Shown here: piece after piece, positions 1 to 5,577 of the stretch
Position numbering within the stretch: the first letter of the stretch is position 1
Layout: the number at the start of each line of letters is the position of its first letter
Source: a virus
IMG/VR virus record: IMGVR_UViG_3300049002_000024
Span: 1 to 44,963 of that record
Reading direction: 5' to 3' (one strand)
Length of the DNA stretch: 44,963 bases
Program-made: the position numbers and the translations under genes
Notes under the pieces: model-generated
Told to the model about the DNA's origin: nothing
What the model saw: the letters and a program-made list of their open reading frames with translations, nothing else
The model's database searches: none

Positions 1-74
1 CGGGGCGCCTGTCCCGTTTGGCGCCAGTAATATCGACCGGGGCGCCTGTCCCGTTTGGCGCCAGTAATATCGAC
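1..74. repeat. Two exact tandem copies of a 37-bp unit
   Basis: Bases 1-37 and 38-74 are identical and directly adjacent with no spacer. Each unit contains two GGCGCC hexamers (4-9 and 20-25 in the first copy) separated by 10 bases, so each unit can fold into a short hairpin. The repeat touches the window edge, so the true copy number is unknown. It could be a longer tandem array, a regulatory repeat, or an assembly artefact at a contig end. Confidence 0.85.
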
Positions 75-178
75 CTAACCGATTGATATCATTGATGCCG
101 TACTAACGTATCCTACATGAATGATAACAACCACTTAGCAGCATTGCTTCTCCGGTTGACGTGCTGTGTTGTCCATGC
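75..178. other. AT-richer intergenic stretch
   Basis: This stretch is clearly lower in GC than its surroundings. It lies just downstream of the last gene of the leftward operon, between the tandem repeat and the stop codon at 179. I see no convincing terminator, RNA gene or ORF in it. Confidence 0.4.
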
Positions 179-3221: not shown

Positions 3222-3373
3222 AAGCGCCTCCCGAGGCGCGCCGATCGCTTGCGCAGCAAGCGCAGGCGCTCACGTGGCTCGATGCGTGGCCACCGCTGCG
3301 CATGCGCAGCGGCGATCGCATCGACCAGCAACCCGATCGAGAACCCGATCGAGAACCAGAGCGCGATCGACAT
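3218..3373 (-). CDS. 51-residue single-pass membrane microprotein
   Basis: The first 20 or so residues are a hydrophobic helix (SIALWFSIGFSIGLLVDAI), followed by a strongly basic tail rich in Arg and Lys. The ATG shares one base with the loader stop (TGATG), and the TGA overlaps the next GTG. The predicted topology is an N-terminal membrane anchor with a basic tail. A membrane protein inside the replication operon is unusual. Function unknown. Confidence 0.6.
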   Translation of the reverse strand: MSIALWFSIGFSIGLLVDAIAAAHAQRWPRIEPRERLRLLRKRSARLGRRL

Positions 3374-3903
3374 CAGTGCACCGTCCCGCTAGTGAGCGCA
3401 CACTGCACATCACCGATGAGTTGCTTCGCGCTCGCGCCGGGGATTCCGGCGACGACGCGCTCACGCCGCTCCGACGTGGCGAGCTGCGCGTATAGCTCGA
3501 TGAACCGAGCCCGATCGGCGACTGCGTTCTCGGACAGACATAGCTCGGTCCAGCCGAGCGCGTCGACGCAGCGAGCGACGACGGGATCCGCGAAGCGAGG
3601 ATAGCGATTCATGCCCACCGTGCCGATCGCTTCGCGCACGTCACCCCACGCATCGCCAGCGGCACGCACCGGACCCTCGGTGATCTCGAGCACCGCCGAT
3701 CGGATCTCGGCGATGGTGGGCATCCACTTCGACGATGCGATCAGACGCTTGACGGCGCAGGTCGCAGCCTCGGCGTCGAGATCGGCGAGCATGGTCTCGT
3801 AGACCGCCGACATCGTCACCAGCTCGCGATCGTCGAGGCGCATGGTGTTGCGATACGTGGCGACGAGCATCGCCACCAACTTCATGATTTCGGTCTGCGT
3901 CAC
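3373..3903 (-). CDS. G39P-like replicative helicase loader
   Basis: The N-terminal 70 residues match the pattern of phage helicase loader/inhibitor proteins of the SPP1 G39P type: an MTQTEIMKLV helix, acidic middle and the KWMPTIAEIR signature where related proteins have (F/W)xPTxxEI. Such proteins bring the host DnaB-type helicase to the phage origin. It sits directly after the replisome organiser with a GTGA overlap, as an initiator/loader pair would. The C-terminal 100 residues are less conserved. Family assignment is by motif and context. Confidence 0.65.
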   Translation of the reverse strand: MTQTEIMKLVAMLVATYRNTMRLDDRELVTMSAVYETMLADLDAEAATCAVKRLIASSKWMPTIAEIRSAVLEITEGPVRAAGDAWGDVREAIGTVGMNRYPRFADPVVARCVDALGWTELCLSENAVADRARFIELYAQLATSERRERVVAGIPGASAKQLIGDVQCALTSGTVH

Positions 3904-4940
3904 TTAGCCCCCCTTGCTTCCGCTTCCGCGATTCGGTCTAGAAGCACGCCAATCCCACGCGAACGCGTGCCGGCCGTGCCGTTGATGCGCTTGACCGGCT
4001 CGCCAACGAGCGCGAGTGCCATGTCGTAGCGCCTCGATTCCCACAGCGAACCCGCGAGCCACCGGATGGTCCGATCCCGTTCGCATTCCTCACGCACGCG
4101 CTTGATCACCGCGAGCGCCCGACTCTCCACCACCTCGAGCGGCGTGCCGGAGGCGACCTGGTCGGCGATGCGTTCTGCCAGGAGACGTCGCCCGTTGTCC
4201 GTGGTGGGCAGATCTTGGGTCGCCTGGTCCAGGACCGCACCCACGTCCCTTCGGGCCCGCTGGTGAGCATTCCAGAGCCTCTCAGCGCAGGCGCGTCTCG
4301 CGACAACCTCGGGAGTTTCAGACTGCCGAGGTGCGGTGTCTGTACTGCCGGGGATCGCGCGCGCGGGGTGGGGGGGATCTTCTTTCTTAGTCAGGTCAGT
4401 CAGGTCAGAGTGACCGGACGTGACAGCACGTGACGTGACGTGACCGGACGTGACGCTCGCGACACGTTCCGTGCTATCGGCGACACGGTTTGTGTCACTG
4501 TCACGATTCGTGTCAAAGTTATCCACAGGCATCCTCGAGTTATCCACAGGCACACGTTCCGTGTCGCGAGCGTCACGTTCCGTGACGCCGAGCGCTCGGT
4601 TCCAATCGCGGCGGCGCGCTCGGCTCTCACGACTGCGCTGGCGATCGCTCTGCGGCGCCTCTTGCGCCGCAATGAAGTTGGGCACCACGTAGCCGATCGG
4701 ATGCGGACGAAGACAGCCATCGGCGAGTAGCTCGGGAAGTGCCACCTCGACGATCTCTGTGGGCATGGCGACGATGAGTGCGATCCCCCTTACCCCGCGC
4801 CGGGTCTCAAGCACACCAGCACGGTCGACCTTGCGGAGGACGTGCATCCACACCGAGCGTGCCTGCCAAGACAGCTCGAGCCACGTCTCCGTATCGCGCA
4901 CGTACATGCGCACGTAGCGCTCATTGCTCCAGTCCATCAC
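3900..4940 (-). CDS. Phage replisome organiser / replication initiator
   Basis: The 346-residue protein begins with a winged-helix-like domain (about 1-100: VWMHVLRKVDRAGV and a later basic linker) like the N-terminal domain of phage replisome organisers. A low-complexity region (about 119-184) follows, with heptad-like T(E/N)R repeats, then a helical C-terminal domain that may contact the helicase loader. The low-complexity segment is encoded by an origin-like iteron array. This arrangement, with origin inside the initiator gene, is known from lambda O and related phages. The gene overlaps SLOG upstream and the loader downstream. Confidence 0.7.
   Translation of the reverse strand: MMDWSNERYVRMYVRDTETWLELSWQARSVWMHVLRKVDRAGVLETRRGVRGIALIVAMPTEIVEVALPELLADGCLRPHPIGYVVPNFIAAQEAPQSDRQRSRESRARRRDWNRALGVTERDARDTERVPVDNSRMPVDNFDTNRDSDTNRVADSTERVASVTSGHVTSRAVTSGHSDLTDLTKKEDPPHPARAIPGSTDTAPRQSETPEVVARRACAERLWNAHQRARRDVGAVLDQATQDLPTTDNGRRLLAERIADQVASGTPLEVVESRALAVIKRVREECERDRTIRWLAGSLWESRRYDMALALVGEPVKRINGTAGTRSRGIGVLLDRIAEAEARGAK
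4391..4584. other. Candidate phage replication origin inside the initiator gene
   Basis: Two perfect DnaA boxes TTATCCACA lie at 4519-4527 and 4540-4548, in the same orientation and 21 bases apart. Flanking them are five CAC-N5-GTG elements at 4463-4473, 4484-4494, 4502-4512, 4553-4563 and 4574-4584, three of them exactly CACGTTCCGTG. Most spacings are 21 bases, about two helical turns. Next to these are two copies of TGACCGGACGTGAC (4411 and 4441) and a 9-bp tandem repeat TCAGGTCAG (from 4391). A short AT-richer tract (about 4378-4390) could be the unwinding element. Confidence 0.7.
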
Positions 4941-5287
4941 CGCACCTCGACGACGTGCGTAGGTTTTCCGAGCGCGCGCATGCGCGAGATCATGTCGCGC
5001 GTGCCGCGACTCTCCGTGTCCCAGAACGCCAGGAGCGCGTCGGCGTAATCCGCCATCGCCGCGTTACGGATGGCGCCCGCCGAACATCCCAGCTCACCCC
5101 AGCGCGCCGGGAATGAACGGACAGGAACGCCACACCGGCGGGCCCAGATCTCTCCGCACCGGTCAACCCCGGGGGCGCGCCCCGAGACCACCTCGACGAT
5201 GGTGCTCGTCGGGGGAAGCCACGTCACCACCGCCTCGGAGATGCGGCTGACAGAGGGTGCTAACGACCGAGAACCCGCGATGCACAA
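4937..5287 (-). CDS. SLOG-family (DUF2493/YspA-like) protein
   Basis: The protein shows a Rossmann-like SLOG pattern: CIAGSRS strand-turn at the N-terminus, VSGRAPGVDRCGEIWA in the middle, and RNAAMADYADALLAFWD with GTRDMI near the C-terminus. These proteins are thought to bind nucleotide-derived ligands, and the cellular role here is unknown. I chose a TTG start at 5287 because GGGGAGG lies six bases upstream. A GTG at 5317 would restore a few more residues of the first strand. It heads the overlapping part of the leftward operon. Confidence 0.7.
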   Translation of the reverse strand: MCIAGSRSLAPSVSRISEAVVTWLPPTSTIVEVVSGRAPGVDRCGEIWARRCGVPVRSFPARWGELGCSAGAIRNAAMADYADALLAFWDTESRGTRDMISRMRALGKPTHVVEVR

Positions 5288-5300
5288 CCGGATCCTCCCC

Positions 5301-5332
5301 GGGGGCGACGCCCCCACTTCACTCGGAGTGAA
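5301..5332 (-). promoter_or_regulatory. 15-bp palindromic operator plus GC hairpin before the SLOG gene
   Basis: TTCACTCGGAGTGAA (5318-5332) is a perfect odd palindrome. Immediately toward the gene is GGGGGCGACGCCCCC (5301-5315), a perfect hairpin next to the Shine-Dalgarno (5294-5300). The same 15-mer with only the central base changed occurs at 10337-10351. This suggests a repressor site, with a hairpin that could mask the ribosome-binding site or attenuate transcription. Confidence 0.6.
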
Positions 5333-5364
5333 CGCTCGTGGTACGCCCCTCGGTGCCGATGACG

Positions 5365-5577
5365 TCACCGGGCACCCTCATCGAACAAAGCGTCGATGCT
5401 CGTGTCGAGCGCGCGAGCGAAGAGCGGCACCTTGCCCGCGCTTGGCATCTGGCGACCCAGCTCGATAGCGACCAGCATCGGCGGCGAGCACCCAACCTGT
5501 GCGGCGAGAGCGCGCTGCGACATGCCGCGGATCAGGCGCAGCGCGCGCACGTTCTGCCCGAACCCCTTCGGCAGCAT
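5365..5577 (-). CDS. Cro/CI-family (XRE) HTH regulator
   Basis: A 70-residue single-domain protein with a canonical XRE helix-turn-helix (VRALRLIRGMSQRALAAQVG, then PPMLVAIELGR). It has no dimerisation or peptidase domain, so it is Cro-sized. It is divergent from the regulator at 5659, with shared operators between them. This is the arrangement of a lysis/lysogeny switch, with this gene as first cistron of the leftward early operon. Confidence 0.8.
   Translation of the reverse strand: MLPKGFGQNVRALRLIRGMSQRALAAQVGCSPPMLVAIELGRQMPSAGKVPLFARALDTSIDALFDEGAR

Follow-up and report, generated by a model that had tools for sequence, protein, structure and literature searches.

Where does the replication of this phage begin, and could its origin be written inside the gene of its own initiator? 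Phage origins are seldom annotated in metagenomic genomes. The window, that is, the whole stretch of DNA that was analysed, is a 44,963-bp virus record that carries integrase, baseplate, and contractile-tail genes and therefore belongs to a temperate myovirus. A sequence-only reading had pointed to iterons and two perfect DnaA boxes at 4391-4584, within the gene of the replication protein. The analysis described below indicates that an origin of replication very probably resides inside the initiator's own coding sequence, as lambda ori does in gene O. The functional unit lies nearer to 4375-4586 than to the interval first proposed, and it encompasses a ladder of half-sites and a short-period tract, both of which had been overlooked.

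The initiator gene and its neighbours

The replication initiator gene P0001 spans 3900..4937 on the minus strand; its start is taken from the relatives, and its function from the AlphaFold2 fold and a weak match to PHROG 1408 (replication initiation, E 0.0084). The mechanical ORF (4940..3900, minus strand, 346 codons) opens at GTG 4940, but ATG 4937, its second codon, is the likely start because the relatives begin at that Met. This ATG overlaps the stop of the preceding gene, as TGATG. The helicase-loader gene P0002 (3373..3903, minus strand) overlaps the P0001 stop. Its product belongs to the Inhibitor_G39P family (PF11417, E 1.5e-9, 38.7 bits versus a gathering cut-off of 22) and also matches the helicase loader phrog_2289 (E 3.1e-6). 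The window thus displays a feature of lambda-O-type intragenic origins, a helicase-loader gene adjoining the initiator gene. In the relatives, the downstream genes encode a DnaB helicase (12 of 34) or else IstB/DnaA-type ATPases. To note, 5577..3373 (minus strand) is a compact operon-like run of a Cro/CI-type HTH regulator, a YspA/SLOG-like protein (PF10686), the initiator, and the G39P-type loader, in which neighbouring stops and starts overlap.

P0001 is predicted by AlphaFold2 to comprise an N-terminal winged-helix domain, a disordered linker, and a C-terminal helical part. Residues 20-95 exhibit the element order of a winged helix with pLDDT values of 94-98, the linker (~117-208) is mostly below 50, and the C-terminal helical part is modelled with lower confidence. 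The predicted winged helix is consistent with an initiator that binds repeats and opens an adjacent region. Searches with this protein are otherwise poorly informative. Pfam returned no match to PF04492 (Phage_rep_O) at E<=1 and no plasmid Rep initiator domain, no AAA+ domain was recognised in P0001, a sequence search of solved structures gave nothing useful, and no match emerged when 50,697 phage records were searched directly with P0001. The PDB fold search yielded nothing below 0.001, the best hits being methyltransferases and winged-helix regulators, while BFVD fold matches at E ~0.01 are GpO-like, DUF1376, and replisome-organizer proteins.

Two observations concern the record as a whole. 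GC skew across the window shows no clear turn at the 4.4-kb site, the direction of the genes confounding the signal. The very start of the record (window 1-75) is a perfect 37-bp tandem duplication, CGGGGCGCCTGTCCCGTTTGGCGCCAGTAATATCGAC occurring twice, each copy containing two GGCGCC[AT]GT motifs. This duplication could represent an end or attachment feature, or else an assembly artefact.

Palindromes, ladder, and tract in the linker-coding segment

The iterons are located at P0001 coding positions 354-530, exactly where the low-pLDDT linker is encoded and hence between the DNA-binding and C-terminal domains, as in lambda-O-type intragenic origins. Five of them are palindromes. Iteron 1 (GTCACGGAACGTGAC, 4572..4586) has the strict consensus, a motif that is also found in most relatives, and iteron 2 (ACACGGAACGTGT, 4552..4564) lies 21 bp from it. 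Iterons 3 (ACACGAATCGTGA, 4501..4513), 4 (ACACAAACCGTGT, 4483..4495), and 5 (GCACGGAACGTGT, 4462..4474) are given in the coding sense. The interval holds six CAC-N5-GTG matches (4427, 4463, 4484, 4502, 4553, 4574), not the five counted from the sequence alone; five are true palindromes, and the match at 4427 arises from a different repeat. The palindromes are also less regular than the "mostly 21-base period" given for them, as the spacings are 21, 18, 51, and 21 bp in ascending order, with both DnaA boxes in the 51-bp gap. The coding effect described at the same time, a repeated T(E/N)R, is genuine insofar as the translation does contain TER and TNR units.

Next to the palindromes stands a ladder of five GTCAC half-sites with an exact 10-bp period (4410..4454, minus strand; TRF reports period 10 at 4410-4454). 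On the plus strand it reads GTGAC at 4410, 4420, 4430, 4440, and 4450, and an extra half-site is found at 4435. The ladder spans all three reading frames, none of 500 codon permutations matched it, and no other lag-10 series of the GTCAC half-site exists in the window.

Directly behind the ladder, at the position that it occupies in the relatives, lies a putative unwinding tract (TCTGACCTGACTGACCTGACTAAGAAAGAAGATC, 4375..4409, minus strand). In the coding direction, from 4409 to 4375, it consists of CTGAC repeats and then a purine run. Its periodicity is weak (lag 5, P 0.02; lag 9, P 0.017), and as the 5-nt signal is weaker here than in the relatives, its role in this phage would follow from its position. 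The 30-bp segment starting at 4380 is 57% A+T, and less than 1% of the window is equally A+T-rich; the gene's A+T maximum (60%) is elsewhere, at 4493. The tract is thus not conspicuously A+T-rich, which, like its weak period, counts against the reading as an origin.

Conservation in the relatives and selection on DNA

Relatives were collected by searching with a profile built from the protein sequence of the N-terminal domain. The search retrieved 42 viral loci together with 4 loci from bacterial genomes, and the analysis covered 40 non-redundant genes. As these genes were gathered by protein and not by DNA, their DNA repeats represent an unbiased sample. The nearest relative, L167, comes from a Myxococcota MAG, displays 60-63% identity over the N-terminal domain, and is placed as sister at 97/92, a kinship that hints at a myxobacterial host. 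A Myxococcota hold-out amounted to 2 of 377 genomes, too small a sample.

The simplest alternative to an origin is a coding repeat: the linker would have grown by slippage as a heptad or pentapeptide repeat, and the DNA pattern would be a by-product. The translation is indeed repetitive, linkers tolerate repeats, and both the 21-bp spacing and a 5-nt tract (15 nt being 5 codons) would fit coding repeats. Against this stands the outcome of a codon permutation null in which the protein sequence and the codon counts were kept fixed (500 permutations). Across the 40 genes, pairs of the same half-site at lag 10 number 78, as compared to 6.8+-2.6 expected and a maximum of 18 in the 500 permutations, and palindromes number 65 versus 7.0+-2.6. 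Codon permutations thus reach a tenth of the signal. The longest in-register ladder, in L135, has 10 half-sites, and none of 4,000 permutations exceeded 5. The period of the ladder is 10 bp and the array half-sites are distributed over the three frames (44/35/33 in the 40 genes), so a peptide repeat cannot yield such arrays. The peptide encoded by the same palindrome shifts with the frame, being VTxRD in one case and SRNVT or SHAVT in others. Conservation of the protein repeat with loss of the DNA repeats had been named in advance as the finding that would speak against an origin; the opposite is seen, as the half-sites are kept while the peptide changes in frame and sequence.

The half-sites also co-vary. 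Their third base is C in most genes, G in L001, L141, and L152, T in L131, and A in L160, and it agrees between the palindrome and the terminal site, as well as with the array where this was scored. These switches require ~5 changes scattered on the tree, three of them for G alone, the deep branches of that tree having weak support. In the arrays of the GTGAC class, the frame-2 slots, where GTGAC would create an in-frame TGA, are altered, while the slots in frames 0 and 1 keep GTGAC. The altered slots read GAGAC in L001 and L152, GTTAC in L001, and GTCGA in L141, the observation encompassing four slots in three genes. The letters therefore switch jointly across separate modules, and the stop-forming slots alone are altered. 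Together, the permutation excess, the use of all frames, the concerted switches, and the changes at stop-forming slots demonstrate by computation that the DNA is selected here and not the protein only. The assertion made from the sequence alone, that coding constraint does not suffice, is thereby borne out, and a coding repeat as the sole explanation is very improbable.

The layout is conserved but not invariant. A same-letter 10-bp pair is lacking in 14 of the 40 relatives and a strict palindrome in 8 of the 40, so the grammar varies. In three relatives, the linker carries a long insertion ahead of the origin segment, HNH-like in L150 and GIY-YIG/T5orf172-like in L154 and L157 (domains assigned by eye), which suggests domain insertion into the linker.

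The tract is better defined in the relatives than in the window. It comes right after the last half-site (GTCAC-TCC/TCT) and reads, for example, TCCTA GCCTA GCCGT ACCTA, with a 5-nt period. In 32 pooled genes, lag-5 identity within the tract reaches 0.502, whereas the same proteins would lead one to expect 0.385 (z 10.4); identity is raised at lags 10, 15, and 20 as well. CTAG is concentrated there, 46 of its 65 copies in these genes falling within the 45 nt of the tract.

The DnaA boxes

The two identical TTATCCACA boxes reported from the sequence alone are confirmed at 4519..4527 and 4540..4548 on the plus strand by a pattern scan, 21 bp apart and within the 346-codon frame; the expectation for both strands together is ~0.04. 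The boxes raise the question of whether this is a composite host-plus-phage origin, in which both boxes would be functional and DnaA required, as in iteron plasmids. In favour of such an origin, these perfect consensus boxes are the sole ones in the 45 kb, even when TTWTNCACA is sought on either strand, and they lie inside the iteron cluster. Plasmid origins are known that join phased iterons with DnaA sites (PMC5043065). Among the viral contigs that were sampled, 21 bp is also the spacing at which boxes pair most often (29 pairs, followed by 18 pairs at 22 bp). Box pairs are common in viral contigs and mostly outside long ORFs, so that a pair on its own carries little weight.

The pair is a local duplication. 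Both boxes sit within an exact 15-nt repeat, TGCCTGTGGATAACT, at a 21-bp offset, and since they are part of this duplication they count as roughly one event and not as two independent ones. Permutation of the gene's own codons gave P=0.066 for at least one box and P=0.001 for at least two, and phage-wide codon resampling gave 0.040 and 0.00035; a single chance box in the gene thus has a P of ~0.04-0.07. None of the genes of the 46 relatives, sister L167 among them, possesses a perfect or one-mismatch box, and no perfect box was found anywhere in the 46 loci. DnaA boxes, which in iteron plasmid origins belong to the conserved origin, are here seen in the window only. The view of the boxes as the core of the feature is therefore not supported, and a composite origin that requires DnaA is a possible but rather doubtful reading. 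A lineage-specific role of host DnaA at these boxes is possible.

Box insertion into O-like linkers seems to have occurred repeatedly, given two other genes. In the O-like initiator gene L028:5297-6418 (plus strand), two perfect boxes 30 bp apart in the linker are followed by repeated CCCCCCGCAGAATCTGCACCC-type sequence. In the Phage_rep_O gene (PF04492) L034:9479-10477 (minus strand), three perfect boxes 12 bp apart in the linker are followed by opposed GTAAC/GTTAC half-sites. As judged from its sequence, L034, which belongs to an unrelated phage, is another case in which DnaA boxes are combined with iterons. The two or three perfect boxes of these linkers count in favour of composite origins.

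A model for origin function

How the initiator would be bound, the DNA opened, and the helicase loaded, and whether DnaA plays any part, is what we infer from this architecture. The winged-helix domain, as a dimer, would bind the GTCAC-N5-GTGAC palindromes. Further copies of the initiator would occupy the adjacent GTCAC-N5 half-sites, which are one helical turn apart on the same DNA face, and assemble as a directional filament. This filament would stop at the last half-site (GTCAC-TC) and open the neighbouring short-period tract, after which the C-terminal part of the initiator and the G39P-type loader encoded by the next gene would recruit the DnaB helicase. In this phage alone, the two consensus DnaA boxes among the palindromes may let host DnaA assist, as it does in iteron plasmids.

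The same array might instead be an operator, to which the initiator or another phage regulator would bind to control transcription of the replication operon. Palindromes spaced by 21 bp do look like dimer operators, a gene for an HTH regulator (5577..5365) is located just upstream of the initiator region, and lambda-type origins are also linked to transcription. The position in the linker-coding segment and a directional ladder that ends at a separate tract fit an origin better, as does the occurrence of such arrays in many replication-initiation families. An operator in place of an origin is thus improbable, and an origin within the initiator gene is the reading retained here.

Wider occurrence

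The (GTCAC N5)x3 GTCAC pattern is found in at least 120 viral contigs. As a 9-bp control pattern is likewise found in at least 120, the match count is no evidence and only location separates the two. Where 10-bp arrays fall in long ORFs, the annotated PHROGs that lead among the matches listed are replication initiation, primosomal, and DnaD-like, with 25 of 58 members matching phrog_3729, for example; for the 9-bp control, the leading families among the matches listed are tail-fibre and collagen-like proteins. All 60 arrays are on the GTCAC strand, in part of necessity, since a ladder of GTGAC would introduce TGA into each of the frames. Among the families that bear the array are YdaU-type initiators from E. 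coli prophages. To note, L216:2910-3956 and similar E. coli prophage loci encode YdaU/DnaT-like initiators whose GTCAC ladder lies close to residue 45 instead of in the linker, and a gene of the L216 type was matched in 2,573 of 5,426 E. coli genomes.

Other search handles were less productive. A loader-based locus search for replicates gave two loci only, whose repeats are of another, codon-multiple kind and which were therefore left out as replicates, and a methyltransferase neighbour as handle yielded one locus. In the first two, the gene upstream of the G39P-like loader harbors a 12-bp GTTCCGGATACT linker repeat present five times (VPDT x5; L005:2400-4100) or GAAGCA-type linker repeats (L006:2400-4100). 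Given how different these repeats are, the iteron type is not linked to the type of loader.

A more general proposal may be put forward tentatively and with some doubt: a widespread and as yet undescribed origin grammar of temperate phages, in which opposed GTCAC half-sites, a same-direction ladder with a period of one turn, and a 5-nt tract that the initiator would read on a single opened strand (a DnaA-trio analogue) would be overprinted on the initiator gene. It would be common to several initiator families, including those of prophages of the kind carried by about half of E. coli genomes, with DnaA boxes inserted in some phages, as here. If this grammar holds, the sequence could reveal where replication starts in many temperate phages. 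The half-site switches, being concerted, form a natural series with which to study how a single initiator recognises palindromes as well as a helical ladder. The 5-nt tract offers an element on which ideas about DNA opening by such initiators could be tested, and the window offers a test of whether host DnaA can be drawn by a phage into an origin of this kind.

Comparison with known systems

An origin inside the gene of a lambda-O-like initiator is a kind of system that is already known. In lambda, the inverted-repeat iterons of gene O are bound by dimers of the O protein, which open the region next to them (PMC5043065, PMC7466680). The present locus resembles the lambda and lambdoid origins, and those of Stx phages, in having putative initiator-binding repeats in mid-gene, between the segments encoding the DNA-binding and C-terminal parts, in its inverted-repeat iterons about two helical turns apart with a putative unwinding region beside them, and in the loader gene immediately downstream (PMC5043065, PMC7466680). 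It differs in that P0001 falls outside PF04492, the half-site is the short GTCAC, and the loader is G39P-like. Those origins have four or six iterons of 19 bp and an A+T-rich region of 40 bp; in their place, a direct ladder of half-sites every 10 bp and a tract of 5-nt period lie between and beside the palindromes here. DnaA boxes occur in the window only. This ladder-plus-tract layout was not found in full-text searches of an open-access collection of papers and is likely to be new.

The iteron plasmids P1, R6K, RK2, pSC101, and F share helically phased iterons, DnaA boxes, and an unwinding element, here a putative one, with the window. Their Rep initiators, however, bind direct iterons as monomers (PMC5043065), whereas palindromes are present here and the probable origin is within coding sequence. 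The same arrays are seen in the YdaU-type and related prophage initiators (PHROG 1408 and 3729, with a DnaT-like C-terminus), which exhibit GTCAC-N5 arrays on the coding strand, in many cases followed by a short-period purine tract. Their N-terminal sequence is largely different, the tract is of a purine AGAGA type instead of a CTAGC type, and in the L216 group the array sits at about residue 45, outside the linker. Finally, and by analogy only, the arrangement recalls the DnaA box/DnaA-trio of oriC, where double-strand sites likewise lead, in one direction, to a tract of short period that is to be opened, with a different initiator and a period of 3 nt instead of the 5 nt seen here.
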